Shown here in pieces: positions 10,458 through 51,017 of a DNA stretch of 64,000 nt (within the stretch, counting starts at the first letter, position 1; each line of letters starts with the position of its first letter). Where the stretch lies: NCBI GenBank assembly GCA_018268455.1, contig JAFDWM010000002.1:36038-100037 (forward strand). Direction: 5' to 3'. The translations under genes were made by a program, and so were the position numbers. A model generated the notes under the pieces. That model did not search any database, was not told where the DNA came from, and worked only from the letters and a program-made list of their open reading frames with translations. The stretch is from Actinomycetota bacterium. Its GTDB lineage: Bacteria; Actinomycetota; Actinomycetes; Actinomycetales; Microbacteriaceae.

Positions 10458-10973
10458 GTGACTGGGACACTGCATGCCTCCGACGCGCCCCTGGTCGGCG
10501 TCGTCATGGGCTCCGACTCCGACTGGCGCGTGATGAGCGCGGCCTCCGACGCGCTCACCGAGTTCGGCATCGCGCACGAGGTCGAGGTCGTCTCGGCGCA
10601 CCGCACGCCGGAGAAGCTGCACCGCTACGGGGTCGAGGCGCGCGCCCGCGGGCTCAAGGCGATCATCGCCGGCGCCGGGGGAGCGGCGCACCTCCCCGGC
10701 ATGCTCGCGTCGGTGACGGCGCTGCCGGTGATCGGCGTCCCGGTGCCGCTCGCCTACCTCGACGGCATGGACTCGCTGCTGTCGATCGTGCAGATGCCGG
10801 CCGGCATCCCCGTCGCGACCGTGTCGATCGGAGGGGCCCGCAACGCGGGGATCCTCGCTGCGCGCATCCTCGGCACCGCGGATCCGGCGCTCGCCGACCG
10901 CATCGAGGCCTACGCACGAGAGTTGGAGGCGCAGGTCGAGGAGAAGAACCGGCGCCTGAAGGACAGCCTGTGA
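10458..10973 (+). CDS. purE: N5-CAIR mutase PurE
   Basis: Class I PurE catalysing N5-CAIR to CAIR; 171 residues. Conserved blocks: [20 protein letters not shown] at the N-terminus, [14 protein letters not shown] (catalytic His in AHRTP), [17 protein letters not shown] and [26 protein letters not shown] start. Stop overlaps the GTG start of the LCP gene, giving translational coupling between a purine gene and an envelope gene. Confidence 0.96.
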
Positions 10974-12427
10974 CGCAACTGATGGCGCGGCCGGGAGGCG
11001 TGTCGGCGTCGAGCCTCGGGCTGATCCGCACCCGTCCGATGCGCGACCCCGACTTCGGCTCGCCGGAGGTGATGACCCGCCGCGGCTGGTGGCTGGTCGT
11101 GCTCAATGTGCTGATCCCCGGATCCGCGCAGGTGCTGGCGGGCAACCGCCGGCTCGGCCGGTTCGGCCTCGGCGCGACCCTCACGATGTGGGCGCTCGTC
11201 GTCGTCGGCGTGCTCACCGCACTGCTCTGGCACCAGGCGCTGCTGTGGCTCACCGTCGGCGGGGGCTGGGTCAGCTGGCTGGTGCTCACCCTCATCCAGA
11301 TTCTGTGCATCGCGTATGCCGTGCTCTGGGTGGTGCTCACCTTCGACACGCTGCGCCTGGTGCGTCTCGTGCGCACGAGGGACTACGCGAAGATCGCGCT
11401 CCCGCTCGTCGCCGTGCTGGTGCTGGCCCTGTGTGGGTCGGGGGCTGCATACGCTGCGACCGTGGTGGGATCCAGCCGCAGCGCGATCAGCACGCTGTTC
11501 GGATCCGGCGGGCCGAGCCTGCCCCCGAGCGACGGCTATTACAACGTGCTCCTGCTCGGCGCCGACAGCGGCATGGGCCGCGATTCCATGCGCTACGACA
11601 GCATCTCGGTCGTCTCGGTCAACGCCGAAACCGGGAGGACCACGATCTTCGGCATCCCGCGCGACATGCCGCACGTGCCGTTCGCGCCGGGGCCCATGCA
11701 CGACCTGTACCCCGACGGCCTGCAGGCGCACGAGGACGAGACGTGCGGCTGGGGGAGCGGCATCAACCAGCTCACCAACGCGGTCGAGTACTGCCACACC
11801 GGCAAGTCGCTGTACCCGGAGTCGACCAAGCATGGCTCCCGTCCCGCGGTGGAGGCCACCAAGGATGCGGCCGAGGGAGTGCTCGGGATCACCATCCCCT
11901 ACTACGTGTTCCTGGACATGAACGACTTCGCCAAGCTCATCGACGCTCTCGGCGGTGTGGACATCGACGTCAAGGAGCGCCTGCCCGAGGGCAACGTGCC
12001 CGAATGGGGCGGCCCCGACAACGCCGAGGAGTGGGCGACCGGCTGGATCGAGCCCGGTCAGCAGCACATGAACGGCGACACCGCGCAGTGGTACGCGCGC
12101 TCCCGGTACACGACGAGCGACTTCGACCGGATGCGTCGTCAGCGGGAGCTGCAGGACGCGCTGCTCAAGCAGTTCACGCCGCAGAACGTGCTCACCCACT
12201 TCAACGAGATCGCCGCGGCGGGCACGTCGGCGGTGGACACCGATCTGCCGCAGGACAAGCTGCCGGAGTTCTTCGATCTGATGATGAAGGCGAAGAAGCA
12301 GAAGCTCACCACGATCGACCTGACGCCGGCCAACGGCGTGGACGAGTTCGACCCGGACTGGAACCAGATCCACGCGATGGTCAAGGCCGCGCTGCACCCG
12401 GAGCCGTCGCCCACCCCTACGAGCTGA
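10970..12427 (+). CDS. LCP-family (LytR-CpsA-Psr) cell-wall glycopolymer ligase
   Basis: 485-residue membrane enzyme. LCP proteins move lipid-linked glycopolymers onto peptidoglycan outside the cell, as Lcp1 does for arabinogalactan. About four N-terminal helices (residues 38-160) precede the extracellular LCP domain (about 190-410): [39 protein letters not shown] followed by IPRDM with the conserved arginine, LGGVDIDV, and [20 protein letters not shown] with the family arginine run. It borders the glycan locus and is its most likely attachment enzyme. GTG start overlaps purE. Confidence 0.92.
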
Positions 12428-12509
12428 CGCAGGCCAGACAGCACTCGAGGAAGGCCCGGGATCGGCGGGGCCCGCGGAGCGCCTCGCCGTCCGGCGGCTG
12501 TCGCGCGAA

Positions 12510-12521: not shown

Positions 12522-13598
12522 ATGGCTGTGCTGCGGGTGGTGCTGGACCAGGCGGGCGACGTCGTCGACCCCGATCAGGCCGACGCCGCCCGCTCCCTCG
12601 TGCGTGGACTCGCCGACACCGCACCGCACCGGTGCACGGTCGAGGCGATCGTGCCCGGAGGTGACACCGCGGGCCTGGAGATCGCCGGGGCCGACAGCGT
12701 GCATCGCCTGGCGCTGGGCCGCCGCGAGCTGCGCGCAGCGTGGCAGCTCGGCGTCGTCGCGGGCGTCGGCGGCGGCATCATCCACGCGCCGAGCCTGTTC
12801 GCGCCTCTCGTCAAGCACGACCGCGCCAACGACTACGACCAGACGGTGGCCACCGTGTGGGATCTGCGCGCCTGGACCGATCCCGAGCAGGTGGGGCGCG
12901 GCAGCGCGGCGTGGCAGCGGGGCATGCTCAAGCGCGCCGTCAAGCACGCCGACGCGATCGTGGTGCCCACGCACGAGATGGCTGCGCGGCTCGCCGAGCA
13001 CGGCGGGTTCGGCGATCGGATCCGAGTGATCCCGGGGGCGGCGGCCGAGGGATTCGGGATCCCGCTGGACGCGGCTGAGAGACGCGCAGCACTCGGCGCA
13101 CCCGACCGCTACGTCGTGGCCACCGGAACCGCGGCGACGCTCGGCCCGGTCTTCGCCGCGGCCGTCGCGCTCGAAGCCGATGCGTTCGTGCTGGACGCGC
13201 AGGACGGATCCGCCGCCGCGATCGCCCAGATCGCGCAGGAGCGTGGCATGGACGCACCGCGCGTGCACGTGCGCGGCGCGCTCGACGCGGCGGATCGGGC
13301 GGCGCTGCTCTCCGGCGCCGTCGCGCTCGCCGCAACCGATCCCGCGCCGGTCTGGCCATGGCGCGCGGTCGAGGCGCTCGTGCTCGGCGTGCCGGTGATC
13401 GCGGTGGATGCCGGCGTGCACCGCGACGTCCTGGCGGACGGCGGCGCGCTGGTGGGCGCCGACGGCTTCGATGAGGCACTGGAGGACGCCGCAGGGGACG
13501 GTGCGCGCCGGCTGTCGGTGCTCGCCTCGGATCGCTCCCGGTCGTATTCGTGGCGCAGTTCCGCGGAGCGGGTCTGGGCGCTGCACGCCGAACTGTGA
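12522..13598 (+). CDS. Glycosyltransferase (GT4/GT-B type)
   Basis: 358-residue cytosolic protein resembling actinobacterial GT4 enzymes. The N-terminal half has GGGIIHAPSLFAPL and AVKHADAIVVPTHEMAARL, typical of the first Rossmann domain. The C-terminal half has ALLSGAVALAATDPAPVWPW, then AVEALVLGVPVIAVDAG, the usual GT4 nucleotide-sugar end; the E-x7-E motif is incomplete. Donor and acceptor cannot be told. Sits between the LCP ligase and an ABC exporter, so a role in the exported glycan is inferred. Confidence 0.75.
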   Translation: MAVLRVVLDQAGDVVDPDQADAARSLVRGLADTAPHRCTVEAIVPGGDTAGLEIAGADSVHRLALGRRELRAAWQLGVVAGVGGGIIHAPSLFAPLVKHDRANDYDQTVATVWDLRAWTDPEQVGRGSAAWQRGMLKRAVKHADAIVVPTHEMAARLAEHGGFGDRIRVIPGAAAEGFGIPLDAAERRAALGAPDRYVVATGTAATLGPVFAAAVALEADAFVLDAQDGSAAAIAQIAQERGMDAPRVHVRGALDAADRAALLSGAVALAATDPAPVWPWRAVEALVLGVPVIAVDAGVHRDVLADGGALVGADGFDEALEDAAGDGARRLSVLASDRSRSYSWRSSAERVWALHAEL

Positions 13599-13644: not shown

Positions 13645-13650
13645 TAGAAT
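13645..13650 (+). promoter_or_regulatory. -10 box upstream of ABC exporter 1
   Basis: TAGAAT at 13645-13650 would start a transcript about 35-40 nt before the GTG at 13691. No good -35 sequence is visible. Confidence 0.4.
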
Positions 13651-13690
13651 GGTGAGACTGCGCGGAACCCCGAATTCAGAGAAAGACGTC

Positions 13691-14596
13691 GTGAACAGCA
13701 GACCTGATCTCTTCGCCACTGTGCCTCGGTCGGAGTTCGACATTCCCGGGCGCAGCCACGGCCTCCTCGATGTGGTGCGCTGGCGGTACCTGCTTCAGCT
13801 CCTCGTGCGCACGGGCGTCACCACGCGCTACCGCAACTCCGTGCTGGGCTGGACCTGGTCGTACGTGCGTCCGGCGGCGCAGTTCCTCGTGTTCTGGGTC
13901 GTCATGGGACTCTTCCTCCGGATGCAGGGAAGCACGCCCAACTACGTGATCTACCTCTTCTCGGGCATCATCGTGATCAACCTGTTCTCCGAGGCCTTCA
14001 AGAACGCGACGACCTCGATCGTCGGCAACGCCGCACTGGTGAGGAAGGTGTTCCTGCCGAGGCAGCTCTTCGCGGTCTCCTCGGTGATCGTCGCGCTGGT
14101 CCACGTCCTCCCGCAGGTCGCGCTGCTCACGATCATCGTTCTCTTCATGGGATGGCTGACCCATGCATCGTTTTTCGCGATCGGCGCGCTGATCGCGGCG
14201 ATCGTGATCATCACGGTCTTCGCACTGGGACTCGGGCTGTTCTTCGGCGCGATCAACGTGCGCTTCCGCGACTCCGAGAACATCGTCGAGCTTCTGCTCC
14301 TCCTCGCGACGTGGGCATCCCCGGTGCTGTACGTGTGGACCATGGTGGAGACCGCGGTGAAGGAGCTCGGCTGGCCGCACTGGATTCTCGAGCTCTACCT
14401 GCTGAACCCCATCACGCAGAGTGTCGAGCTCTTCCACTACGGGTTCTGGCGTCCGACGCTCGCCGACCCCGTGATCCCGATCCCCCCGAACCTCGGGATC
14501 AACACTCTCTGGACGCTTCTCATCGCGATCATCGCCGTTCTGCTCGGGCAGCTCGTCTTCCGACGTCTCGAAGGAAGGTTCGCGCAGGACCTATGA
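13691..14596 (+). CDS. Polysaccharide ABC exporter permease (Wzm type), copy 1
   Basis: 301-residue ABC-2-type permease with six predicted helices. Conserved features are the interface helix TTRYRNSVLGWTWSYVRPAAQF and the C-terminal YLLNPITQSVELFHYGFW, as in O-antigen and teichoic-acid exporters. It flips lipid-linked polysaccharide across the membrane with the ATPase encoded next. GTG 13691 was chosen as first good start after the TAGAAT box; an in-frame ATG at 13649 is an alternative. Stop overlaps the ATPase start. Confidence 0.9.
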   Translation: MNSRPDLFATVPRSEFDIPGRSHGLLDVVRWRYLLQLLVRTGVTTRYRNSVLGWTWSYVRPAAQFLVFWVVMGLFLRMQGSTPNYVIYLFSGIIVINLFSEAFKNATTSIVGNAALVRKVFLPRQLFAVSSVIVALVHVLPQVALLTIIVLFMGWLTHASFFAIGALIAAIVIITVFALGLGLFFGAINVRFRDSENIVELLLLLATWASPVLYVWTMVETAVKELGWPHWILELYLLNPITQSVELFHYGFWRPTLADPVIPIPPNLGINTLWTLLIAIIAVLLGQLVFRRLEGRFAQDL

Positions 14597-15333
14597 GCAC
14601 CACCATCTCCCGACGACCGAGCGTCATCATCGACGCCGTCCACAAGAAGTTCACGCTCAATCATGCGTTCTCGTTCAAGGACCTTCTCGTGTCCTGGATC
14701 CGCCGACGCCGGATCACGTCCTCCTTCGAGGCGCTCAAGGGCGTCGACATCGTCATCAACGAGGGCGAGTCGGTCGCGATCCTCGGCCTGAACGGCTCGG
14801 GGAAGTCCACCCTGCTCAAGCTGATCTCCGGGGTCATGGAGCCGGACGGCGGGCAGGTGCTCACACGCGGTCGGGTCGCCGGACTGATCGAGGTGGGTGC
14901 GGGGTTCCACCCGGAGCTGTCCGGCCGGGAGAACATCTTCCTGAACGCGGCCATCCTGGGGATGAAGCGCAAGGAGATCGAAGAGCGGTACGACCAGATC
15001 GTGGCGTTCAGCGAGATCGAGGAGTTCATCGACCAGGAGGTCAAGCACTACTCGTCCGGGATGTTCATGCGGCTCGCGTTCTCGGTCGCGATCCACGTCG
15101 AGGTCGATGTGCTCCTCGTGGATGAGATCCTGTCGGTCGGCGACGCGCCGTTCCGCGAGAAGTGCCGGAAGAAGTTCGAGGAGCTGATCGCCGCGGGCAA
15201 GACGCTCGTCGTCGTCAGCCATGATCCCGAGATGGTGCGCGAGCTGTGCACCAGGGGCGTCGTGCTCTCGCGCGGCACGATGATCTACGACGGCGAGATC
15301 GAGAACGCCCTCGCCTACGTCGAGCCCGCCTGA
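14593..15333 (+). CDS. Polysaccharide ABC exporter ATPase (Wzt type), copy 1
   Basis: 246-residue ATPase partner of the permease. Walker A GLNGSGKST, a teichoic/O-antigen-type signature YSSGMFMRLAFSVA in place of LSGGQ, Walker B VDVLLVDEILSVGD and the H-loop VVSHD are all present. There is no C-terminal carbohydrate-binding domain, so export should not need a terminal cap as in E. coli O9a; the short form resembles mycobacterial Rv3781. The ATG overlaps the previous stop by 4 nt. Confidence 0.93.
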   Translation: MSTTISRRPSVIIDAVHKKFTLNHAFSFKDLLVSWIRRRRITSSFEALKGVDIVINEGESVAILGLNGSGKSTLLKLISGVMEPDGGQVLTRGRVAGLIEVGAGFHPELSGRENIFLNAAILGMKRKEIEERYDQIVAFSEIEEFIDQEVKHYSSGMFMRLAFSVAIHVEVDVLLVDEILSVGDAPFREKCRKKFEELIAAGKTLVVVSHDPEMVRELCTRGVVLSRGTMIYDGEIENALAYVEPA

Positions 15334-15461: not shown

Positions 15462-17381
15462 ATGACGTGGATCGCCCTCGCCCTCGCCCTCGTCGTCCTT
15501 GCGGCCGTGGTCGTCCTGCCGGGGCTCGCGATCGCCTGGCTGCTCGGTTTTCGCGGGCTCTGGCTGCCCGGGGTGTCCATCGCCGCCGGCGTCAGCGTGA
15601 TCAGCATCGCGGCCACCGCGGCGCCGATGGTGGGGATGCGGTGGGGACTCATTCCGGTGCTGGTGGTCACCGTCGTCCTCGCGGGCATCGCGTTCCTGGC
15701 GCGACGGCTGCTGTGGAGGACCCAGACGCTGAGCGGTCCGCGTCTGAGCCGGGGAGGGATCGTCGCGGTCGGGCTCGCCGTGCTGGTCATCGTGGCACAG
15801 CTGTTGTTTGTCATCCGCACCCCGGACGCGATCTCGCAGACCTTCGACAACATCTTCCATCTCAACGCCATCCGGTTCGCACTCGACACCGGCAGCGCCT
15901 CGCCGCTGACCCTGGGCCAGCTGACCAGCAGCAGTTCCGGCGGTCTGCCGTTCTACCCGTCCGCGTGGCATGCCGTGGCGTCGCTCGTCGTGTCCATCAC
16001 CGGCGTGGCCATCCCCGTCGCGTCGAACGCGGCGACGATCTTCTTCGCCGCCGTGTGGCCGCTCTCCGTGGTCCTGCTCGTGCGGGCGCTGTTCGGCGGC
16101 AGGACTGCGCTCATCGTCGGCGCCATGGCCGTCAGCGTGGCGCTGCCCTCGTTCCCCATCCTCCCGCTCGACTACGGCGTCCTGTTCCCGTTCATGATGT
16201 CCGTCGCGCAGCTCGGCACGGCGCTCGCGCTGCTGTACACCGGGATCGAGATCAAGGGACGGGCGCGCTGGGCGGCGTTCATCGCTCTAGTCGGAATCGT
16301 GCCGGGGATCGTCATCAGCCATCCCGGCGGCTTCATGGCGCTGCTCGCCTTCGGCACTCTCCTGCTCGGCTGGCGCTTCGTCCGCTTCGTGCTTCGCGCG
16401 CCATCGACCGCGGCGCGGGTGTGGGCCTCGGCGGGCGCGGCAGCCTACCTGCTGGCTCTCGTCGTGTCCTGGTCGGTGCTGCGGCCGCCCGCGGCGGCGC
16501 GCACCTGGGCGCCGGAAGGCACCGCGGGGCAGGCGATCGGGGAGGTGATCACGGTGTCGGGCTGGCACGGACCGATCAACTACGTCGTCGCCGTCGCGGT
16601 CATCATCGGCTTGTGCATCGCGGTGCGCAGACGCGGCGTCGCCGACGTCGCGGCGGTGCTGCTGTTCGTCGGCGCGGGGGTTCTCTACGTCGCCGTCGCG
16701 GGAATGACGGATCCGCTCCTGCGCGACATCCTCACCGGACCCTGGTACAACAACGTCCCTCGGCTCGCGGCGCTGATGCCGATCGGCTGGATCCCGCTCG
16801 CGGCGCTCGGCATCGATGCGAGCTGGGGCCGCATCAGGTCGTGGATGCAGCATCGGCAGCCTTCCCGTCTCGTCCGTGTCGCCGTCGCCGTCCTCGCGGC
16901 GCTGCTGCTCGTCGTCGTGCCGCAGTTCACGGTGATGCGCTCGGCGACGGCGGTGGCGCATTTCGGCTACATCCGAGGTGAGGACTCGCCGCTGCTCTCG
17001 GCGGACGAGTGGACGCTTCTGTCCCGGTTGGACAAGGAGACGCCCGCGGACGCGGTCATCATCGGGAATCCGTGGACCGGCACGGCGCTGGCGTACGCGC
17101 TGGCGGGTCGTCGGGTCCTCCTTCCGCATACGCTCACCGACATCACTCCCGAGATGACGGCCATCCTCAACGGTCTGAACACGGCGACCGATGACAGCAA
17201 GGCCTGCCGGGCCGTCCGCGACCTCGACGTGACCTACGTGCTGGATTTCGGAGGACCCGAGATCAACAACGGCAAGGTCGTGTTCCCCGGGTTGACGAAG
17301 CTCTCCCGCTCGGACAACGTGGAGCTCGTCGACCAGCAGGGCAAGGCGAAGCTGTACCGCATCATCGGGTGCGGTGAATGA
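15462..17381 (+). CDS. DUF6541-like polytopic membrane protein
   Basis: 639-residue membrane protein with about a dozen helices and an extracytoplasmic C-terminal region (about 500-639). The loop after the early helices has QTFDNIFHLNAIRFAL, and later SHPGGFMALLAF and GPWYNNVPRLAALMP; this GT-C-like layout matches actinobacterial DUF6541 proteins. Such proteins may be polyprenyl-phosphate-sugar-dependent transferases, but this is not established. ATG 15462 has purine-rich AAGAAAG upstream. Followed after 13 nt by a GT2 gene, so likely one operon. Confidence 0.72.
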   Translation: MTWIALALALVVLAAVVVLPGLAIAWLLGFRGLWLPGVSIAAGVSVISIAATAAPMVGMRWGLIPVLVVTVVLAGIAFLARRLLWRTQTLSGPRLSRGGIVAVGLAVLVIVAQLLFVIRTPDAISQTFDNIFHLNAIRFALDTGSASPLTLGQLTSSSSGGLPFYPSAWHAVASLVVSITGVAIPVASNAATIFFAAVWPLSVVLLVRALFGGRTALIVGAMAVSVALPSFPILPLDYGVLFPFMMSVAQLGTALALLYTGIEIKGRARWAAFIALVGIVPGIVISHPGGFMALLAFGTLLLGWRFVRFVLRAPSTAARVWASAGAAAYLLALVVSWSVLRPPAAARTWAPEGTAGQAIGEVITVSGWHGPINYVVAVAVIIGLCIAVRRRGVADVAAVLLFVGAGVLYVAVAGMTDPLLRDILTGPWYNNVPRLAALMPIGWIPLAALGIDASWGRIRSWMQHRQPSRLVRVAVAVLAALLLVVVPQFTVMRSATAVAHFGYIRGEDSPLLSADEWTLLSRLDKETPADAVIIGNPWTGTALAYALAGRRVLLPHTLTDITPEMTAILNGLNTATDDSKACRAVRDLDVTYVLDFGGPEINNGKVVFPGLTKLSRSDNVELVDQQGKAKLYRIIGCGE

Positions 17382-17394
17382 CCCTGGAGGCCTG

Positions 17395-18285
17395 ATGACC
17401 CTGGAGATCTTCTGCCCGTTCTGGGGCGACCCCGACCTGCTGTTCGAGACCGTGGCGTCCGTGCGCGCGCAGCGCAACGACGACTGGCGTCTGATCGTCA
17501 TCGACGACTGCTACCCCGATGAGACCGTCGCCGGGCGCTTCGCCGCGATCGAGGACGACCGGATCACCTACGTGCGCAACGAGAAGAACCTCGGGATCAC
17601 GGAGAACTACCGTGAGGCGATCCGGCGCGCCACCACGCCGTACATCGCGATCCTGGGCTGCGACGACCTGCTGCACCCGAACTACGTCGACGTCGTGACG
17701 CGTACGATCGCCGAGGCGCCCGGAGCCGACGTGATCCAGCCCGGCGTGATCGTCATCGACGAGCACGGAACGACCGTGACGCCGCTCGTCGACCGCGTCA
17801 AGCAGGGCATGCTGGCGCCGAAGAGCGACGGGCGCAGCGTCATGCTCACCGGCCCCGACATGGCGACCAGCCTCATCCGCGGCGATTGGCTGTACTGGCC
17901 ATCGCTGGTCTTCCGCACCCAGACGCTCCAGCGGATCGACTTCAGGGAGGGGCTCCCGATCATCCAGGACCTCGCGCTGCTGATGGACATCGCCTTCGAC
18001 GGGGGCTCGCTGGCGTTCACGCCCGAGGTCGCGTTCTCCTATCGCCGGCACGGGGCCAGCGCATCCCAGAAGACGATCATGGATGGCCGCCGCTTCCGCG
18101 ACGAGCGCGCCTACTACCGCACGGCGCGGACTCTGGCGCTGGCCAAGGGCTGGAAGAAGACGGCACGGGTCGCCGCGGTGCGGCTGATGTCCCGCCTGCA
18201 CGCCGTGACCGAACTGCCCGGCGTCATCAGGCACGGAAACAGCACTGCGCTAAAATCGACGCTGGCGCACATCTTCGCAGGTTGA
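17395..18285 (+). CDS. Family 2 glycosyltransferase
   Basis: 296-residue GT-A enzyme. N-terminal nucleotide-sugar-binding fold: MTLEIFCPFWGDPDLLFETV, VIDDCYPDETVAGRF and the metal-site region AILGCDDLLHPNYVDVV. The later FSYRRHGASASQ matches the C-terminal element of bacterial GT2 enzymes. ATG 17395 chosen because GGAGG lies at 17386-17390; an in-frame GTG at 17374 is possible. Donor sugar unknown. Part of the DUF6541 operon. Confidence 0.87.
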   Translation: MTLEIFCPFWGDPDLLFETVASVRAQRNDDWRLIVIDDCYPDETVAGRFAAIEDDRITYVRNEKNLGITENYREAIRRATTPYIAILGCDDLLHPNYVDVVTRTIAEAPGADVIQPGVIVIDEHGTTVTPLVDRVKQGMLAPKSDGRSVMLTGPDMATSLIRGDWLYWPSLVFRTQTLQRIDFREGLPIIQDLALLMDIAFDGGSLAFTPEVAFSYRRHGASASQKTIMDGRRFRDERAYYRTARTLALAKGWKKTARVAAVRLMSRLHAVTELPGVIRHGNSTALKSTLAHIFAG

Positions 18286-18344
18286 GGCCTTCGCCGATGC
18301 ATCGAACGCCGTCGATGGCCGCCTGACCGCCGAGGAGAACACCC

Positions 18345-19481
18345 ATGTCCGAACACGTGCTGATCACCGGAGGCGCGGGATTCATCGGAAGCCGCCTGGC
18401 TGCGCGCTTCGTGGCCGACGGTCACACCGTGACCGTGCTCGACTCGCTGATCCCGCAGGTGCACGGCGAGGATCCCGCGACGACCTCGCCGCTGCTGCGC
18501 TCGCTCGAGGGCGTGGCGAACGTGGTCGTCGGCACCGTGTGCTCCAAGGATGATCTTCGCCGCGGGCTTGAGGGCGCGACGATCGTGATCCACCTCGCCG
18601 CGGAGACCGGCACAGGCCAGTCGATGTACGAGATCGACCGCTACGTCGACGCGAATGTCGGAGGCACGGCGAAACTGCTCGACATCCTCGCCAACGAGGA
18701 GAACTCGGTGCGCCGGATCGTCATCGCATCGTCGCGCTCGATCTACGGCGAGGGCGCGTATGAGACCGAGGACGGACGCCGCGTCTACCCCGGGCACCGT
18801 GCCGACGCCGACATGGCCGGCGGCGATTTCGAGGTGCACGCACCCGGGGAGGGCGCGCTGCGCCTCATCCCGACCGACGAGACCGCGCTGGTGCATCCGT
18901 CGTCCGTCTACGGCATCACGAAGCAGATGCAGGAGTCGCTGATCATGACGGTGGCGCCGACGATCGACGTCGAGCCCGTCTCGGTGCGCTACCAGAACGT
19001 CTATGGCCCCGGTCAGTCGCTGAAGAACCCCTACACGGGGATCCTCTCGATCTTCTCGACCCTGATCCGCCAGGGCAAGGACATCAACATCTTCGAGGAC
19101 GGCGAGGAGAGCCGCGACTTCGTCTACATCGACGACGTCGTCGAGGCGACGTTCCGTGCCGCGACCGTCCCCGCCGCCGCCGGCGGCACCTTCAACGTCG
19201 GATCCGGCGTCGCCACCTCTGTGAACGAGGTCGTCGCCGCCCTGTTCGCCGCGTACGGCACGCAGGTACCCACGCACATCTCCGGCAACTACCGCCTCGG
19301 CGACATCCGGCACAACGTGGCGGACACGACGGCGCTGCGCGAGGTCCTCGGCTTCACACCGGCCATGGCCTTCGAGGACGGCGTCAAGCGGTTCGCGGAA
19401 TGGGTGCTGACCGAGCCGATCGAAGCCGACGGCTATGAGCGCTCGCTCAAGGAGATGGCGGAGCGGAAGCTGCTGAAGTGA
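18345..19481 (+). CDS. NAD-dependent epimerase/dehydratase (extended SDR)
   Basis: 378-residue nucleotide-sugar enzyme. Rossmann motif [16 protein letters not shown] at the N-terminus, HLAAETGTGQSMYE, and catalytic YGITK (Tyr-x3-Lys) preceded by HPSSV. FVYIDDVVEATFRA and FNVGSGVATSVNEVV are typical of UDP-glucose/GlcNAc 4-epimerase-like or dTDP-sugar enzymes. Likely supplies an activated sugar for the locus; exact reaction unknown. Ribosome site GAGGAG before the ATG. Stop overlaps the next gene. Confidence 0.88.
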   Translation: MSEHVLITGGAGFIGSRLAARFVADGHTVTVLDSLIPQVHGEDPATTSPLLRSLEGVANVVVGTVCSKDDLRRGLEGATIVIHLAAETGTGQSMYEIDRYVDANVGGTAKLLDILANEENSVRRIVIASSRSIYGEGAYETEDGRRVYPGHRADADMAGGDFEVHAPGEGALRLIPTDETALVHPSSVYGITKQMQESLIMTVAPTIDVEPVSVRYQNVYGPGQSLKNPYTGILSIFSTLIRQGKDINIFEDGEESRDFVYIDDVVEATFRAATVPAAAGGTFNVGSGVATSVNEVVAALFAAYGTQVPTHISGNYRLGDIRHNVADTTALREVLGFTPAMAFEDGVKRFAEWVLTEPIEADGYERSLKEMAERKLLK

Positions 19482-21331: not shown

Positions 21332-21332
21332 C

Positions 21333-32944: not shown

Positions 32945-34147
<1,203 letters not shown>

Positions 34148-34184
34148 CGACCCTCGGGTGCACGGGGCCGCGAACCCTGATCGA

Positions 34185-43344: not shown

Positions 43345-43908
43345 TCAGGACTGCAGAAGTGCGGTGAGCTCGGCGACGGCGCCGCGCGCCTTCGCCAACG
43401 CGGCGGCATCTGCGGGATTCAGCGAGAGCGCGTCGAGTGCGGCCATGTAGTCCTGCAGGGCCGCACTCCAGCCCTGCTCGATGGACGTCGGTGCCGCGAC
43501 ATCGGCGATCCTCTGCGCATCGCCCTGCAGCTTGGTGACGGTGCCCTGCGGATCCTGGCCCTGTGCGATCAGGTCCAGGCCTTCGCCGGCGGTCACGATC
43601 CGGAAGCCGACCTGGTCGCGGAAGGCCGCGATGTCCGGGACCTCGGGAGTCGGCGCCACGGTGGGAGCCGCCGTGGGGACGGGGCTGGCAGTCGTGGGCG
43701 CCGCGGACGGCGTCGGGGTGGATGACGGCGATGAGGTGGGCGCGACGGCGGGCCTGTCATCGCGTGGGATGAGGAACAGCGCCACGACGCCGATTGCCAC
43801 CAGCGCGAGCACGACCAGTCCGATGGTGAGCGCGATGCGCCCTCCACGCCCCTTCTTCTTGTCCTCGGGGAAGACCCAGACGGCCTCCGGCTGCGGCTGC
43901 TCGCTCAT
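43345..43908 (-). CDS. Single-pass membrane protein with Pro/Thr/Ser-rich linker, unknown function
   Basis: 187 residues: short cytosolic start with EDKKKGRGG, one helix (about 29-52, IALTIGLVVLALVAIGVVAL), a P/T/S/A-rich linker (55-95) and a helical outer region (95-187). Not a family I recognise. ATG 43908 has GGAGG upstream and overlaps the GlfT1-like stop by 1 nt, so it is the last gene of the minus operon 49616-43345. Its place suggests an accessory envelope role in galactofuranan assembly. Confidence 0.7.
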   Translation of the reverse strand: MSEQPQPEAVWVFPEDKKKGRGGRIALTIGLVVLALVAIGVVALFLIPRDDRPAVAPTSSPSSTPTPSAAPTTASPVPTAAPTVAPTPEVPDIAAFRDQVGFRIVTAGEGLDLIAQGQDPQGTVTKLQGDAQRIADVAAPTSIEQGWSAALQDYMAALDALSLNPADAAALAKARGAVAELTALLQS

Positions 43909-44870
43909 CAGTCCTCCAGGGCAGGCATCGGGCGCCAGCTGCGATCCCGGCCGATCTTCCCGCCGTCGCGGAGTCCGCGGAACAGGTTGCTCGTGCCGCG
44001 CACGGTGCGCTCCACGAACACCAGGCGGATGAGCTCCTTGGCGAACGTCATCGTGGTGCCGAGCCCGAACAGCGCCGGGTTGTAGACATCGTGCTCGCGG
44101 TAGTACTGCTTCAGGTGGGCGCGGTTGCGCATGATGTAGTACCGGTACGCGTTGCTGGACGCGTTCATGTGCCGGATGCCCATGTCCCACTGCTTGATCT
44201 CGCGGGTGCGCCGCAGCACGAACTCGTCGACGATCACCGCCTGCGTGCGCCGCGAGGCGAGCCAGCCGTACATCTGGTCGTCCCAGTAGATGAAGAAGCG
44301 CGGATCCGGAAGCCCGATCTCCTTCACGATCGAGCGGTGGATGAACATGCCCTCGAAGCAGCCGCTGTTCATGGGCTTGAACCCGGTCGCGTCGAACCCC
44401 GCGGGAGCGAACGGGATCGGGATCGCCATGCGCTCGGCGATGCGGTACTGCCAGTAGAACGCGCTGCCGTCGTAGTCGTAGCGCCGCCCCTGGATGCTCT
44501 TGAACCGCGGGGCCCAGGCGCCCATGCGGGCGAGTCCGTCGGGGAGCACCTCGACGTCGTCGTCCATCATCCAGATCCATTCGGATCCGAGCTCGTAGGC
44601 GGTGCGCATGCCCTCGCTGAAGCCGCCGGAGCCGCCCGTGTTGGTCTCCAGACGGCGGTAGACGATCTCCGTGCCGAGCCGGTCGCGGAACGAATCGACC
44701 ACATCGGTGGTGTCGTCGACGGAGGCGTTGTCGATCACGACGACGCGCCCCGGCTTCGGATCCATCTTCTCGATGCTGGAGAGCAGACCCGTCAGCAGAT
44801 GCGAGCGGTTGTAGGTGACGACGACGATCGTCGCGGTGGCCGGATCGAACCCGATCCCGGGACCCGTCAC
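43908..44870 (-). CDS. glfT1: Galactofuranosyltransferase, GlfT1-like (GT2)
   Basis: 320-residue GT-A enzyme resembling mycobacterial GlfT1, which adds the first galactofuranose residues to the lipid-linked linker. IVVVTYNRSHLLTGLLSSIE, NTGGSGGFSEGMRTAYELG, the metal motif DDD at 103-105 (WMMDDDVEVLPDG), WDDQ at 196-199 and KQWDMGIRHMNAS fit the family. Acceptor not provable from sequence. GTG 44870 overlaps the GlfT2-like stop by 4 nt. Confidence 0.82.
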   Translation of the reverse strand: MTGPGIGFDPATATIVVVTYNRSHLLTGLLSSIEKMDPKPGRVVVIDNASVDDTTDVVDSFRDRLGTEIVYRRLETNTGGSGGFSEGMRTAYELGSEWIWMMDDDVEVLPDGLARMGAWAPRFKSIQGRRYDYDGSAFYWQYRIAERMAIPIPFAPAGFDATGFKPMNSGCFEGMFIHRSIVKEIGLPDPRFFIYWDDQMYGWLASRRTQAVIVDEFVLRRTREIKQWDMGIRHMNASSNAYRYYIMRNRAHLKQYYREHDVYNPALFGLGTTMTFAKELIRLVFVERTVRGTSNLFRGLRDGGKIGRDRSWRPMPALED

Positions 44871-46777
44871 GAGCGCCCCTCGAAGGTGGATCTCCAGGAT
44901 TCCTCCGACACGAGCTCGGGCAGCGCGGCCCGGTACTCCTTCTGCAGCTGGGGCCACCGTCGGCGCAGGGCCGCGTGCAGCCGCACCGTCTCCTTCAGCA
45001 GTTCGCGGAACTTCTCGCGATCCCGCGTGTAGATGTTGTAACCGGAACCGTCGGCTGCGCTCACCAGAGCGCTGTCGTGCAGGGGCACGCGCCACCAGGC
45101 CGCGTCGCCCTTGCCGAACTCGACCTCGGGCCGGTCCACGTTCGCGGGATCCGGTGTGTGGAACCAGTGCGAGACCAGAGTCGACGCGGTGAACCAGCGC
45201 AGCGCGACGCCCTTCGGGCTGTCGAAGACATGCGCCTTGAGCCGCTTGAACACCTGGCGCCCGCGGCGCGAGCTCAGGGGCACGCCGGAGTCCTTGTGCA
45301 CGATCGTCTCCGGGAAGTCGGCGGCGATCGCGCGCGCCTCGGGCATCGCGGTGCCGAGTCCGGCGCGCATGTGCTGCGGGCCGGAGAGGATATCGCGCAG
45401 CGCCTTCACCCGCAGGGCGACGGGGTAGTACTGCATCATCATCAGGTGCTTGAGGTCGACGCGCCGGCTGTGCCGCAGCAGCGTGCCCCCCCGTCGTGCG
45501 TTCGAGTGGATGAGCGCGGCGGCGATCCGATTGCGGGCGTGGAAGTAGGCCTGCCAGTCGATCGAGTCATCTTTTCCGACCCAGGAGACATGCCAGAGGG
45601 CGACGCCGGGCAGGGAGACCGTGGGGAACCCGGCTTCGCCGGCGCGGAGGCAGAACTCCGCGTCGTCCCACTTGATGAATGCCGGGAGGGAGAGCCCGAC
45701 CTTGCGGATCACCTCGACCGGGATGAGGCACATCCACCAGCCGTTGTAATCCGCGTCCAGACGCATGTGCAGCAGCGGCTGCTGGCGCAGGTTGATCGCC
45801 GAGAAATCGTGCGGCATCTTCTCCTGGAAGAGGTTGCGCCACATGAACGGACCCTCGTCGACGACCTCGGCCCAGGCGTGCAGCTTCGGGCGGTCGAGCA
45901 GGTCGAACATGTGTGCGCCGACGAGGGTCGGCGTCGTGGCGAAGCGGCCGAACGTGATCGAGCGCCGCAGGGCCTCGGGTTCGATGCGCACGTCGTCATC
46001 GAGAAGCTGCACGAAGTCGCTCTCCGGACGCTGCAGGGTCTCGAGCATCGCGCGGGAGAAGCCGCCCGAGCCGCCGAGGTTGGGCTGCGTGATGATCTGC
46101 AGGGTGTCGCCGAGACTCTCCGCGATCGCGGGGTACTCGCTGCGTGCGTCCACGCGCTGCGTACCCTGGTCCATGAGGAAGATCCGGTCGACCAGCTCCA
46201 GGGCCTCCGGTGCGTCGATCAGCGCCTGAAGCGTCTGCACGCAGTAGTCCGGCTTGTTGTAGGTGGTGATCCCCAGGGATGCCTTGCCGGAGCGCGTCGG
46301 CTCCTGCTCGGTCGTCCACTCGGCACCCTCGAACGTCGTCTCCTCGCGGTCTGCGACCATGTCGAACCAGATCCAGCCACCATCGCTGTACTGGTCGAGA
46401 CGGATGTCGAAGGACACCGAAGACGTGCCGGAGACCTCGCGCGTGTCGATCCGCTGTCGGGCGCCCGCCCCGGTGGAGCGGTACACGAGCACGGTCGCCC
46501 TGCCCGACGTGCGCACGGTCAGCCGGATGTCCCGGACCGAGGTCCAGTGCTGCCAGTACGACGCGGGGAAGGCGTTGAAGTAGGACGCGAAGGAAACGCG
46601 GCGGCCGGCGCCGATGCGCGCTCGGGAGCGCCCGAGGATGTTGCCGATATGCGCCCGGCTGGTGACTCGCACCGGCTCCTCGTCGATGACGGACCACGTC
46701 TCCGGGTCTGCGTACAGGGGGAGGAGATCGGGATCCCGCTCGAGCGGGAAGACGACGTTCTGAAGGACGTGAGTCAA
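44867..46777 (-). CDS. glfT2: Galactofuranosyltransferase, GlfT2-like (GT2, processive)
   Basis: 636 residues, virtually the length of M. tuberculosis GlfT2 (637), which polymerises the galactan chain from UDP-galactofuranose. N-terminal beta domain with RRVSFASYFNAFPASYWQHW, then the GT-A domain: ITTYNKPDYCVQTLQAL, NLGGSGGFSRAMLETLQ, DDD at 260-262, WDDAE at 370-374 and His396 in ALWHVSW, matching the catalytic set of GlfT2. Helical C-terminal part. I chose TTG 46777 because GGAG lies 8 nt upstream and it gives the family N-terminus (MTHVLQNVVFP); no ATG or GTG is closer. Confidence 0.9.
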   Translation of the reverse strand: MTHVLQNVVFPLERDPDLLPLYADPETWSVIDEEPVRVTSRAHIGNILGRSRARIGAGRRVSFASYFNAFPASYWQHWTSVRDIRLTVRTSGRATVLVYRSTGAGARQRIDTREVSGTSSVSFDIRLDQYSDGGWIWFDMVADREETTFEGAEWTTEQEPTRSGKASLGITTYNKPDYCVQTLQALIDAPEALELVDRIFLMDQGTQRVDARSEYPAIAESLGDTLQIITQPNLGGSGGFSRAMLETLQRPESDFVQLLDDDVRIEPEALRRSITFGRFATTPTLVGAHMFDLLDRPKLHAWAEVVDEGPFMWRNLFQEKMPHDFSAINLRQQPLLHMRLDADYNGWWMCLIPVEVIRKVGLSLPAFIKWDDAEFCLRAGEAGFPTVSLPGVALWHVSWVGKDDSIDWQAYFHARNRIAAALIHSNARRGGTLLRHSRRVDLKHLMMMQYYPVALRVKALRDILSGPQHMRAGLGTAMPEARAIAADFPETIVHKDSGVPLSSRRGRQVFKRLKAHVFDSPKGVALRWFTASTLVSHWFHTPDPANVDRPEVEFGKGDAAWWRVPLHDSALVSAADGSGYNIYTRDREKFRELLKETVRLHAALRRRWPQLQKEYRAALPELVSEESWRSTFEGRS

Positions 46778-46893: not shown

Positions 46894-48192
46894 TCAGCGG
46901 TCGCGCAGGGTCGGCGTCGAGCTCGTCTGCACCGCATCGATGTTCTCCCGCCACGAGCGCGACTGGCCGGCCCGCAGTGCGCACAGCACGAGCAGGAACC
47001 AGCCGGCGTTCACGAGGGTGAAGCTCTCGAACGCCGAATCGACGGCGAGCGCGACGAGCACCAGCGGCGCCCAGGCGTACACGACGGAGCGGCGCACGCT
47101 CGCGACCAGCCACGATCGCACGAGGGCGATGCCGCCGAGCAGGCAGAACAGCAGCAGGCCGCCGGCGCCCGTCTGCAGCAGCACGTCGAAGAACGCGTTC
47201 AGGGCGCTGCCGTGATGATCGTTCGTGAGGTAGTTGATGATGTTGAACGGATAGAGCTCGTCCGACCAGAGCCCGAACCAGCCCCACCCCTGCACCGGCC
47301 GCTGCTGCAGGTACGGCACCATCGCCGTCCACAGCTCGACGCGGGTGTTGAAGTCGCTGCCGGCGTCGAGCAGCGCGATGATCCGGCTCCGGAAGACGGC
47401 CGCCGCCACGAGCGCTGCCACCACGACGGCGCCGATCGTCCACTGCAGCGGTCGTCGCCGGGCGGGGCTCACCTGGCGGACCATGACCAGCGCCACGCTC
47501 GCAGCGCCCACGATCGCCGCCAGCACGAGCACGGTGGGCGACGCGGAGAGCAGCGCCAGGAACCCGCCGAGCGCGATCGATGGGATCGCGACGGGTGCGG
47601 ACAGCGACTGCGAGCGCCACTCGACGACGAAGGTGATCACCGCGATCACGGCGATCAGCCCGAGCATGTTGCGCGTTCCGAACAGGCCCTGGATCGGGCC
47701 GCCGACCGCGAGGTCGCCCTGGATGCCGAGGAAGCGGAACGGCACATCCAGCAGGATCCCGCTCATGATCTCGGCGACGAGCGATGCGACGAGCAGGATC
47801 CGCAGTGCGTCGCCCAGCGCGCGCACCGTCTGCAGCGTGTCGCGGATGTGCCCGATCGTCACCGCGATGAGTGCGTAGCCGAGCAGTGCGGACCATGCGC
47901 GCAGCGAGGGCCCCGAGGCGGTCGACCAGAACGTGCTCGCGAGCGTCCAGGCGAGGAACGCGAGGAGTGTCGAGGGTGCGACCCGCAGCGGACTGAGCTC
48001 CTCGCGCCGCACCCACAGGATGCCGGCGCCGACCGCGGCGAGCACGGCGATGATCGTGCTCAGGGTGGTCGCCGAGGTGAACGACGAGATGGCGAAGGAT
48101 CCGAACACCGCCAGCAGGGCGCAGGTCGTGTAGGCGCGTGCCATCTCGACCGAGGCCAGCGTCCGCGCCAGGCGCCGCCGCGGAGTGCTCAT
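46894..48192 (-). CDS. O-antigen ligase/polymerase-like membrane protein
   Basis: 432 residues, about 11-12 helices, with the large outer loop typical of the Wzy_C/WaaL family: AGSDFNTRVELWTAMVPYLQ and RPVQGWGWFGLWSDELYPFN, then HGSALNAFFDVLLQTGAGGL. These proteins polymerise repeat units or ligate glycans outside the membrane. ATG 48192 overlaps the preceding stop. A 116-nt gap before GlfT2 may hold an internal start. Confidence 0.85.
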   Translation of the reverse strand: MSTPRRRLARTLASVEMARAYTTCALLAVFGSFAISSFTSATTLSTIIAVLAAVGAGILWVRREELSPLRVAPSTLLAFLAWTLASTFWSTASGPSLRAWSALLGYALIAVTIGHIRDTLQTVRALGDALRILLVASLVAEIMSGILLDVPFRFLGIQGDLAVGGPIQGLFGTRNMLGLIAVIAVITFVVEWRSQSLSAPVAIPSIALGGFLALLSASPTVLVLAAIVGAASVALVMVRQVSPARRRPLQWTIGAVVVAALVAAAVFRSRIIALLDAGSDFNTRVELWTAMVPYLQQRPVQGWGWFGLWSDELYPFNIINYLTNDHHGSALNAFFDVLLQTGAGGLLLFCLLGGIALVRSWLVASVRRSVVYAWAPLVLVALAVDSAFESFTLVNAGWFLLVLCALRAGQSRSWRENIDAVQTSSTPTLRDR

Positions 48193-49616
48193 GCCGTCCG
48201 CCGCCGAGAGCGGGGCGGTGCGCCCTCGCCGGGACCGGAGCCGACGAACGGCGAGATCTTCATCTTGAACGAGAGCAGGATCAGCAGCATCCAGCCCCAG
48301 AGCATGATCGGCGTGGACTCCGCGATGCCGAGCACGAGGAGCATGCCGACGAGCATCGTCGGAAGCAGCGACAGCGCGGCGAAGGGCCTGTCCTGCACAA
48401 GATCCCAGCGCGGCCGGTCGATGGCGAAGAACCAGGCGCGCCACGCGAACGCGACGTAGGCGATCGCCACGAGCAGCACGCCGATCGCGCCGAGCTGCAG
48501 GAACGCGTCCAGCCACATGTCGTGCGCCATGAACACGGTGATCCGATGGTCGAGGATCCAGTTGTGGAACGCGGGATCCCACGGAACCCAGGGTGAGGAG
48601 AAGCCGTTGCCGAACACCGGGCGCTGGATGGCGCGCTCCCAGACCTTCTGCCAGATCTCGGCGCGCCCGGTGAGGTCCGACGACTTGCCGAGCAGCCCGA
48701 AGAGCGTGTCCCGGAACACGATCGCCCCGCCGATCACGACGATCCCGGCACCGCCGAACAGCAGATAGAGCGGAGTGCGGCGTCCCGGCCGTGCCCGCCG
48801 CATGAGCAGCGCCATGCCGAGCACGGCGATCCCGGCTGCGAACGCCGCGTACGACGTCGCGGATCCGGCCCGAAGGAACAGGAAACCGGCCAGCACGATC
48901 CAGATGAGCAGCGCCGGCCGGCGCCACGCGCCCTGCGTGCCCCGCGAGGTGAGGCCCTGGGCGTAGAGGATGCCGAAGACGACCAGCGCGATCGCGCACA
49001 GGATCCCGAGCGTGTTGGAGTTGCCGACGATCCCCTGCAGTCGGCCGCCGTCGAAGAGGTCGCCGCGCACCCAGTACCAGTGCGGGTCGGGCTTGCCCTC
49101 AGGGAGGTCGTCGAAGAACGGCAGCAGGGGGTGACGCAGCACGAGGGCCACCCACAGCTCCAGCGCGAGCGAGAGACCGATGATCCACTTGAGTGCGCTG
49201 GAGACGGCGCGCACGATCTCGCCCCAGCTCAGCGCGAACGCGATGAACAGCGCGACCGCGGTGATGGCCGCCTGCAGCACCCAGGTGAGCAGCGTCGCCC
49301 ACGGCCATCGCGACCACAGCACCGAGACGAGTGCCAGCGCCAGATAGACGAGCGCCGCCCAGGGCAGGCGGCGCCAGGGGAAGCGGGACGGCAGTGCGAG
49401 CGCGATACGCGGGATCGCCAGCCCCAGCGCGCCCAGCAGCAGCACGCCGAGCACCGCGACCGCGCCGTCGGCACCGAGCAGGTTGAACACGGCCGTGTGT
49501 GCGAACGTCGCGAACAGCAGCAGCACGATGTACCCGCGCAGCAGGAGATGCCGGGTCGACTCCCGCGCGGGAGCGCTCGGCGGGGGAGCCGTGGAGAGTC
49601 GGGAGTGCTGCGCCAT
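48189..49616 (-). CDS. O-antigen ligase/polymerase-like membrane protein
   Basis: 475 residues, about 11-12 helices. Outer-loop motif SSDLTGRAEIWQKVWERAIQ, followed by RPVFGNGFSSPWVPWDPAFH and MAHDMWLDAFLQLGAIGVLL, matches the Wzy_C family. Less than half similar by eye to the adjacent homologue, so an old duplication or two separate roles. First gene of the minus operon 49616-43345; TAGCCT at 49630-49625 is 8 nt before the ATG. Confidence 0.87.
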   Translation of the reverse strand: MAQHSRLSTAPPPSAPARESTRHLLLRGYIVLLLFATFAHTAVFNLLGADGAVAVLGVLLLGALGLAIPRIALALPSRFPWRRLPWAALVYLALALVSVLWSRWPWATLLTWVLQAAITAVALFIAFALSWGEIVRAVSSALKWIIGLSLALELWVALVLRHPLLPFFDDLPEGKPDPHWYWVRGDLFDGGRLQGIVGNSNTLGILCAIALVVFGILYAQGLTSRGTQGAWRRPALLIWIVLAGFLFLRAGSATSYAAFAAGIAVLGMALLMRRARPGRRTPLYLLFGGAGIVVIGGAIVFRDTLFGLLGKSSDLTGRAEIWQKVWERAIQRPVFGNGFSSPWVPWDPAFHNWILDHRITVFMAHDMWLDAFLQLGAIGVLLVAIAYVAFAWRAWFFAIDRPRWDLVQDRPFAALSLLPTMLVGMLLVLGIAESTPIMLWGWMLLILLSFKMKISPFVGSGPGEGAPPRSRRRTA

Positions 49617-49688
49617 CGCCGTTCAGGCTACCGTGCAAAGCCCGCCACGGTCGGTGCGTCGCTCACGCCTCGTCATCGGGTCGCGGGC

Positions 49689-51017
49689 TCAGTGCCGTGA
49701 CCGGCGGCGGCGGATGGCGACCACGGTCCATGCGGCCCCGACCAGGACGAGCGCGCCGCCCAGCACGCCGATGACGATCGCGATCGGCGCGGCGCCGGCC
49801 GCGGGCGCAAGAGTGGGGCTGGGCGTGGGATGTGCCGATGGCGAGGTGGTCGGGACGGTCGGCGTCGCGGAGGGTGTCGGCGCCGCCGTGCCCTGGATGA
49901 GGAAGCTGTCGGCGAGCGCGCCCGCGCACGCGTTCTCGAATGTGCCGGCGAAGGTGGTGTCGGTCACGGTGAACGAGACGTAGCCGCAGTTGTCCGCCCC
50001 GGAATCGGCGACCAGCATGAACGGGAAGTCGCCGTCGTCTGCGTTCACGGCGGAGGGCTTGTGGCCTCCGGTGCCGATGATGAGCTGCACCGGGCCGGCA
50101 CCGCGGACGTAGGGTGCCGCAGGTGAGCCGTCCGCGTCGGTGGTGCAGGCCGCGTCGTACCGGTCGTGGGTGATGCGCGGGCACGCATCGGTCAGGCGCA
50201 GCTGCTTCGAGCGCTGGTAGTTGTGCTCATGGCCGTTCAGGATCAGATCGACCTTCGTCTCGCCGGCGAGTGCGAAGATGTCGCCGAACTGGGGCGCCGT
50301 CGGCGCGTAGTAGCCGGTGGACATGTCCGCACCGTGGTCTGCGCCCGCATTCAGATACGCGACGTGGTAGGTCAGCACGACCCACTCGTGCTTCGACTTC
50401 GCATCCAGGATGGCCTGCTTCACCCAGTCGTACAGTGCCGACCCCTGGCTGTAGTCGCGCAGGCCGCCGGTCCGGTAGGTGAGCCCAGGGTTGATGTTGA
50501 TCACGCGCAGGAGCGGGCTGCTCGCCGGGAAGTCGTAGAACGAGTCCTTGGCGGCGTCGGTGTCCGGATCCGTGGGAAACGACGTGATCGAGCGCAGCGG
50601 ATCGGCGCAGGAGGACGCGCCGGTGTAGTCCTCGATCGCGAACCCGGGTTTGGCGTCCTGCGCCTCATGATTGCCGGCTGCGATGATGTACGGAACCGCC
50701 GTACCGCCGCTCGTGCTGGCGATCTGGCCGTTCGTCCACGTGCACCAGTCGGCACCGGAGTGCACCGACGAGGCCGCGCTCGCGTCGTAGGCGAGGTCAC
50801 CCAGACTCTGGACGAATGCGGGCTGATTCTGGCCGATCATTCGCAGCGTGCGGGACGTCGAGTCTCCGGGGTCACCCGGTCCGTCGGACCCGTTGTCGCC
50901 GACCGCGCCGAACGTGAACCCTCCCGGGTCCGCCGCTGCCGCATTCACTCCGAGGTACGGCGAGGCGAGCACCGCGGCGACGGCGATGGCCAGCAGCACA
51001 CGACGACGTCGTCTCAT
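49689..51017 (-). CDS. Secreted metallophosphoesterase (purple acid phosphatase-like)
   Basis: 442-residue exported enzyme with an intact calcineurin-like metal set: GAVGDNG, SLGDLAYD, AAGNHEAQD, LTYHVAY and LNGHEHNYQR. Signal peptide 1-29 (LLAIAVAAVLASPYLGVNAAAA). After a Pro/Thr/Ser stalk (about 375-405) a C-terminal helix and RRRRSRH tail anchor it to the membrane; no LPxTG motif. Substrate unknown; phosphate ester hydrolysis outside the cell is likely. ATG 51017 has AGGAG upstream. Contrasts with the degenerate lipoprotein at 35764. Confidence 0.88.
   Translation of the reverse strand: MRRRRRVLLAIAVAAVLASPYLGVNAAAADPGGFTFGAVGDNGSDGPGDPGDSTSRTLRMIGQNQPAFVQSLGDLAYDASAASSVHSGADWCTWTNGQIASTSGGTAVPYIIAAGNHEAQDAKPGFAIEDYTGASSCADPLRSITSFPTDPDTDAAKDSFYDFPASSPLLRVININPGLTYRTGGLRDYSQGSALYDWVKQAILDAKSKHEWVVLTYHVAYLNAGADHGADMSTGYYAPTAPQFGDIFALAGETKVDLILNGHEHNYQRSKQLRLTDACPRITHDRYDAACTTDADGSPAAPYVRGAGPVQLIIGTGGHKPSAVNADDGDFPFMLVADSGADNCGYVSFTVTDTTFAGTFENACAGALADSFLIQGTAAPTPSATPTVPTTSPSAHPTPSPTLAPAAGAAPIAIVIGVLGGALVLVGAAWTVVAIRRRRSRH

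Follow-up and report, generated by a model that had tools for sequence, protein, structure and literature searches.

The 64,000-nucleotide stretch analysed here (hereafter the window; contig JAFDWM010000002.1 of a Microbacteriaceae genome of 3.6 Mb in 310 contigs) carries a wall-glycan locus in which a gene fusing two glycosyltransferases (GT) to a polysaccharide pyruvyltransferase-type domain stands next to a gene encoding an SLH surface protein. Taken as a whole, this arrangement is best explained, with a probability that we put at ca. 50%, by the fusion protein capping a wall glycan with pyruvate and by SLH domains reading this cap. The locus, which lies at a conserved chromosomal site, would make lipid-linked glycans and export them through two Wzm/Wzt exporters, and its LCP (LytR-CpsA-Psr) ligase would, judging from the families involved, join the exported glycans to peptidoglycan. 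In the window genome it would have gained an accessory cassette whose GT2-GT4-pyruvyltransferase fusion may finish the glycan chain in the cytoplasm by adding a ketal-pyruvate at the non-reducing end. After export, the cap would be clamped by SLH triplets with intact binding triads, namely those of a CotH-SLH protein, of a protein combining an unannotated N-terminal domain (N-domain) with SLH, and of a GH25-SLH protein whose gene lies at another place in the genome. An exporter ATPase with an SLH-type tail, present in Pseudoclavibacter and one more relative, may recognise this cap while the chain is still to be exported, much as the carbohydrate-binding domain of Wzt acts in the export of Gram-negative O antigens. 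The capping proposal is economical because SLH and Wzt carbohydrate-binding domains are both known to read chain ends: the latter are described as recognising a terminal cap (PMC9445017), SLH domains of SpaA as binding and preferring a pyruvylated sugar at the non-reducing end (PMC6081394), and the Bacillus anthracis polymer as carrying pyruvylated N-acetylmannosamine (ManNAc) in its terminal repeat only (PMC7831098).

SLH triplets are rare in the family. Our own triplet profile found them in 18 of 398 genomes and 8 of 85 genera (such counts are minima, the best eight candidates per genome having been scored for SLH and the best four for the pyruvyltransferase domain of the fusion), and the Pfam SLH model matched 5 of 150 family genomes. 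In 10 of the 18 SLH genomes (G000, which is the window genome, G040, G070, G208, G233, G253, G331, G358, G376 and G395) a pyruvyltransferase-type gene occurs within 10 kb of an SLH gene, against about 0.45 expected, an approximate figure derived from a random-placement model using SLH-cluster and gene counts. Each of the unlinked genomes (G007, G096, G153, G180, G203, G240, G345 and G373) gave one or two SLH matches, and in G180 a fusion-type domain is found ca. 33 kb from an SLH gene in the same purE-LCP locus. The mere presence of PF04230, the Pfam pyruvyltransferase family, is of little weight because it occurs in 211 of the 398 genomes (15 of the 18 with SLH versus 196 of the 380 others, p 0.007) and fails to detect the domain of the fusion in G070 and G233; its position near SLH genes is the more useful test. 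A strong match to the fusion's own domain was obtained in six of the 398 genomes (G000, G029, G070, G180, G233 and G243; two more are weak), and SLH triplets occur in four of these six versus 14 of the remaining 392 (p 4e-5). These figures bear out what a preliminary description of the window had proposed, namely that SLH proteins go together with glycan loci bearing a pyruvyltransferase. SLH genes without a pyruvyltransferase, which that description had named as refuting its proposal, occur in G096 and G240, as searched with PF04230 and the fusion-domain profile; in the SLH triplets of these two genomes, one groove or two out of the three are damaged.

Relatives of the fusion are encoded in 14 loci of named genomes, 8 of which include the pyruvyltransferase domain. 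SLH was found within the fetched stretch in five of these eight versus none of the six lacking the domain (two families; p 0.03), a comparison made over stretches of unequal length (those of L092 and L096 being short contigs) and in which the domain-less loci are those of more distant relatives. The five belong to an Actinomycetota metagenome-assembled genome having the gene order of the window, to Pseudoclavibacter soli and P. caeni (the latter with SLH on Wzt only), and to Demequina sp. NBRC 110053 and D. lignilytica. In Demequina, which lies outside Microbacteriaceae (L091 and L093), SLH proteins encoded after the fusion gene have VanY-type carboxypeptidase domains (both SLH proteins of L091 and the first of L093, whose second was not scanned). 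Other GT2-PS_pyruv_trans fusions of 1047 and 1122 amino acids (L078:15223-18363 and L126:787-4152) also adjoin SLH genes, in G376 and G253.

The ligand pocket of SpaA is reported to consist of Arg43, Gly29 and Trp13 from neighbouring repeats, which contact pyruvylated ManNAc (PMC6081394). The corresponding W13/G29/R43 triads were scored in 59 stretches, namely 50 complete triplets outside Wzt, three Wzt tails and six fragments, two of which are from one degenerate SLH protein of the window genome (contig C242) too fragmentary to score; a groove counted as intact with Gly, a basic residue (Arg or Lys) and an aromatic one (Trp, Tyr or Phe). In linked genomes all 34 scored triplets have grooves 1 and 2 intact, versus two of the nine of unlinked genomes (both in G180), counts that are not independent given the relatedness of the genomes, and a contrast of degree that tells somewhat against our interpretation, all nine unlinked triplets keeping at least one intact groove. 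By genome the table reads 9/0 versus 1/7, leaving out G070 whose only SLH is a Wzt tail. The two grooves are also intact in 4/4 complete triplets from the named fusion loci and in 3/3 from other families of the class, and within a single genus they are intact in the linked G395 and not in the unlinked G007, G153, G203 and G373. Both SLH triplets of the window have grooves 1 and 2 intact and a groove 3 without Trp. Elsewhere in the window genome, contig C29 encodes a GH25 muramidase whose SLH triplet is intact (L019:1183-2751) and contig C242 a GH26 glycosidase with degenerate SLH repeats (L020:8952-11939).

The fusion itself may transfer pyruvate. Its last domain scores 24.5 bits against PS_pyruv_trans when the whole open frame is scanned and 28.5 bits when taken alone (cut-off 25.3), and was modelled by AlphaFold with a pLDDT of 89. 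In an alignment of nine such domains, Arg173, His318 and Lys342 are invariant (9/9) and, by motif and spacing, would correspond to residues R148, H308 and K328 given for CsaB (PMC10435577).

SLH-type tails were also detected on Wzt, the exporter ATPase, of P. caeni (L090:15812-17053), P. soli (L089:20317-21582; the identical protein occurs in G233) and G040 (L023:8340-9530). The tail comprises ca. 150-165 residues after the ATPase and matches the SLH profile; a Pfam scan of the two Pseudoclavibacter proteins gave ABC_tran and SLH in both. It is predicted to lie in the cytoplasm, none of its stretches reaching the hydrophobicity of a membrane helix (mean over 19 residues at most 0.8). The AlphaFold2 model of the P. 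caeni tail has a pLDDT of 85 and SLH domains of Sap or SpaA account for each of its 15 best PDB matches, the underlying alignment having included extracellular SLH rows that aid the model. Groove 1 (Arg of repeat 3, Gly29 of repeat 1 and Trp13 of repeat 2) is the only one retained in the three tails, the arginine of two of them lying outside the scored stretch and being read from alignments; the groove-2 Trp of repeat 3 is lost in all three and the third repeat is truncated. The ATPase part is 62-63% identical to Wzt1 of the window versus 47-50% to Wzt2, and a Wzt1-type protein of the same-genus genome G355 has a classical Wzt_C domain at the tail position. In P. soli the genes run in the order rml, N-domain protein, fusion, GT, four SLH proteins, SLH-tailed Wzt and Wzm, and in G040 the tailed Wzt sits in the purE-LCP locus. 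It is possible, as a tentative extension of the capping proposal, that a single pyruvylated chain-end cap serves both as export pass and as anchor: the fusion would cap the chain, the SLH tail of the ATPase would check it in the cytoplasm and secreted SLH proteins would grip it outside, such that only chains fit for anchoring are exported.

The genes of the locus, as identified by Pfam and NCBIfam scans of the window open reading frames, are the following (coordinates in the window, strand, product).

10970-12427, +: LCP glycopolymer ligase (PF03816, E 8.5e-23); left border, after purK-purE
12522-13598, +: GT4-type glycosyltransferase (PF13439, barely above cut-off)
13649-15333, +: ABC glycan exporter 1, wzm1 (13649-14596) and wzt1 (14593-15333) (PF01061, PF00005)
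15462-17381, +: DUF6541 multi-pass membrane protein (PF20176, E 1.6e-160)
17374-24701, no strand assigned: four GT2 glycosyltransferases, NAD-epimerase, acyltransferase, flippase-like membrane protein and a small gene
24790-27312, -: surface protein with the N-domain (26416-27120) and a C-terminal SLH triplet (24793-25368; PF00395)
27400-30697, +: rmlA, rmlB and rmlCD, dTDP-rhamnose supply (Pfam)
30872-32905, +: AT3-SGNH O-acyltransferase (PF01757, Acyl_transf_3; PF19040)
33011-35731, +: glf, wzm2 and wzt2, UDP-galactofuranose (Galf) supply and ABC exporter 2 (Pfam; TIGR00031)
35764-36693, -: metallophosphatase-like gene, start of a 7.6-kb insert (PF00149, 20.2 bits, below the cut-off of 21.5)
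36858-40313, +: fusion of 1151 amino acids, GT2 - GT4 - polysaccharide pyruvyltransferase, last domain at 39162-40310 (PF00535, PF13692, PF04230)
40411-43068, -: CotH - ChW - SLH surface protein, SLH triplet at 40414-40986 (PF08757, PF07538, PF00395)
43345-46777, -: gene without family match (43345-43908), GlfT1-like gene (43908-44870) and GlfT2 (44867-46777)
46894-49616, -: two Wzy_C (O-antigen ligase/polymerase-like) proteins, from 46894 and 48189 (PF04932)
49689-50999, -: metallophosphatase-like protein (PF00149, 31.3 bits)
51704-56184, +: right border, large GT-like protein and DUF5719-like protein

Every gene listed in the preliminary description was recovered in its place, the "flippase" (21333-22601) by that name alone, having no match in Pfam or NCBIfam. 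The scans refined the anatomy in that the pyruvyltransferase proved to be the last domain of a GT2-GT4 fusion and one SLH protein to include CotH and ChW as well, and they added the two metallophosphatase-like genes (35764 and 49689). Two ABC2_membrane/ABC_tran pairs occur at 13.6-15.3 kb and 34.2-35.7 kb, glf (33011) scores above the NCBIfam equivalog cut-off, and the acyltransferase at 19478 is of the Acyl_transf_3 type; the small gene of the 17374-24701 segment is presumably a DUF2304 gene. The large protein of the right border, which we take to be a GT as we take its partner to be DUF5719-like, has no Pfam or NCBIfam match. Beside it, a small protein (51147-51551, +) is strikingly conserved for its size, the relatives detected in nine other loci being 75-84% identical.

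The N-domain of the 24790-27312 protein has no Pfam match, a PDB sequence search gave nothing of use, and the sole NCBIfam match of the protein is weak and falls outside this domain. Its ca. 235 amino acids include an invariant Lys-Glu and a YTPY-PN motif, and 21 distinct copies were counted among the fetched loci; it is possibly a wall hydrolase. The C-terminal module of the protein is SLH in the window, LGFP repeats in G106, G040 and G180, and FG-GAP in G258, variation from which it follows that this module is swapped.

The same chromosomal site was compared in seven genomes of the same genus (G106, G164, G215, G258, G296, G328 and G355). The left border purK-purE-LCP has the same order in all seven, all of which also have glf, a GlfT1-like gene and Wzy in the locus and encode the N-domain within it (in L022 this domain is found elsewhere); wzm2/wzt2 are present in six (not in G164), GlfT2 in five (none was seen in G328 and G355) and the right-border pair in six, the G258 stretch ending short of it. 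No match to the fusion was obtained in any of the seven loci, and the profile search found no SLH triplet in the eight same-genus genomes of the sample. No gene separates wzt2 from glfT1, or from the small gene preceding it, in five of the seven, where the gap between open frames is about 250 bases or less, and in G296 another large glycosyltransferase gene occupies this site. In the window, the 7.6 kb between wzt2 and the glfT genes are filled with a metallophosphatase-like gene, the fusion and the CotH-SLH gene. Because the site is empty in five of the same-genus relatives, the fusion and CotH-SLH pair has the appearance of an accessory cassette within a glycan locus of variable content. The galactan genes are thus the ordinary part of this locus and the capping/SLH cassette its unusual and interesting part.

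Several observations weigh against pyruvate capping and its reading by SLH domains, in addition to those given below with the alternatives they favour. Known SLH ligands are pyruvylated ManNAc, and no ManNAc-supply gene (MnaA/TagA) was recognised in the window, no genome-wide search having been aimed at such genes. PF04230 is a weak model for the fusion, matching just four of the nine members of its domain at 0.01; a PDB sequence search found no relative of this domain, and among the 50 listed of 919 Foldseek matches, mostly UDP-GlcNAc 2-epimerases and glycosyltransferases, there is no named pyruvyltransferase. Three named loci (L094, L096 and L099) have the pyruvyltransferase domain and no SLH nearby. 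As to export, wzt1 (246 amino acids) and wzt2 (247 amino acids) of the window end with the ATPase domain and have no tail. SLH-tailed Wzt occurs in at least 3 of 398 family genomes (more are possible, not every match having been fetched), and no further one was found among 296 class genomes in which the best 10 candidates per genome were considered; four of these candidates reading from the ATPase into a tail were opened (G433, G405, G503 and G504), none being SLH, and shorter ones (e.g. G078, G240 and G419) were left unopened. Finally, in G040 the SLH/PF04230 pair lies ca. 160 kb from the tailed Wzt and does not involve the fusion.

The preliminary description had regarded a galactan-like polymer as the SLH anchor, and the GlfT2 galactan might accordingly itself be pyruvylated. 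The GlfT2 assignment is firm, the window protein having two GlfT2 Pfam domains and an E value of 3.8e-135 to the solved GlfT2 4fix; the GlfT1-like GT2 has GlfT1 as its best NCBIfam model with 66.6 bits (cut-off 330), and the two window Wzt score 176.1 and 151.6 bits against the galactan Wzt equivalog (cut-off 400). In favour of such an anchor, the window cassette was inserted beside glf, wzm2, wzt2 and the glfT genes, three genomes of one genus (G096, G208 and G253; not the fourth, G376) have an SLH gene placed between glf and GlfT2, and pyruvylated Galf is reported from the Klebsiella K12 capsule (PMC6801904). Against it, GlfT2, present in 35 of 150 family genomes and 25 of 85 genera, is absent from 10 of the 18 SLH genomes, which led us to reject galactan as a general SLH anchor. 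It is missing from both SLH-bearing Pseudoclavibacter, whose locus has rml genes, and present in a third Pseudoclavibacter genome (G133) that has no SLH triplet. Moreover, 32 of the 35 GlfT2 genomes are without SLH, GlfT2 and SLH show no clear association in the 150 genomes (3/5 versus 32/145, p 0.08), and G096, with its glf-SLH-GlfT2 order, gives no PF04230 match even at E 0.01. Pyruvylated galactan as the anchor is rather unlikely. Because the SLH tail belongs to the wzt1 lineage, not to the glf-linked wzt2, and the two SLH-bearing Pseudoclavibacter genomes have no GlfT2, the glycan that bears the cap and anchors SLH proteins is more likely the wzm1/wzt1 product.

Alternatively, SLH might bind peptidoglycan or another anionic cap, the pyruvyltransferase serving an unrelated surface glycan and their linkage reflecting no more than a shared variable locus. 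SLH is described as binding polyaminated peptidoglycan in Negativicutes (PMC10628300), eight of the 18 SLH genomes have no pyruvyltransferase gene within 10 kb, and the widespread PF04230 occurs once in the locus without SLH, as a different gene in the same-genus G164. This explanation is nevertheless unlikely in view of the groove contrast between linked and unlinked genomes, of the triad motifs, which according to the same source are not conserved in Negativicutes OmpM (PMC10628300), and of the tail on the exporter ATPase, whose predicted cytoplasmic placement is away from assembled peptidoglycan. That the Wzt tail is a functionless relic of gene fusion, as its truncated third repeat and its detection in only three genomes might suggest, is unlikely given that it is retained in two genera, has a confidently predicted fold in P. 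caeni and keeps the groove-1 triad in all cases while the groove-2 Trp is always lost.

Pyruvylation of actinobacterial wall glycans is presented in a review as a chemotaxonomic marker without known function (PMC6801904); the locus supplies a candidate enzyme for it, which bears on the ligand of actinobacterial SLH domains, and P. soli, P. caeni and Demequina are named strains in which the proposal can be tried. If it is true, SLH on an exporter ATPase would make one sugar tag the link between control of export and anchoring at the surface. In the collection of papers searched, no work was listed that combines SLH with galactan or pyruvate in Microbacteriaceae, and a Klebsiella O1 paper was the only one to mention both Wzt and the SLH domain.

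Among known systems, that of the mycobacterial galactan (Glf, GlfT1, GlfT2, Wzm-Wzt and Lcp1) resembles the locus in combining Glf, GlfT2, a GlfT1-like GT, an ABC exporter and an LCP ligase. It differs in that GlfT1 and Wzt are here below their equivalog cut-offs, that Wzy-like proteins are present and that no arabinan or mycolate gene is among those recognised in the window, no genome-wide search having been made. The O-antigen ABC exporters with a cap-reading Wzt domain (Aquifex aeolicus, E. coli O9a) share with the relatives of the window a Wzm/Wzt pair with a C-terminal domain on the ATPase and, with Pseudoclavibacter, a candidate cap-adding enzyme in the same locus; unlike in these exporters, an SLH fold replaces the jelly-roll Wzt_C, the same family is found on secreted proteins and the window Wzt are tailless. 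The anchoring of SLH proteins to a CsaB-pyruvylated secondary cell wall polymer, as for Sap of B. anthracis and SpaA of Paenibacillus alvei, has in common with the locus the SLH triplets with W/G/R triads and, putatively, a linked gene of the polysaccharide pyruvyltransferase type, the known SLH domains reading a pyruvylated sugar at the non-reducing end. It differs in that the locus belongs to Actinobacteria, that the pyruvyltransferase domain is fused to two glycosyltransferases, that rml, glf and ABC exporters are part of it, that no ManNAc gene was recognised in the window and that SLH also occurs, in relatives, on an exporter ATPase. The locus is thus possibly a variant of SLH-pyruvate anchoring with a new link to export.

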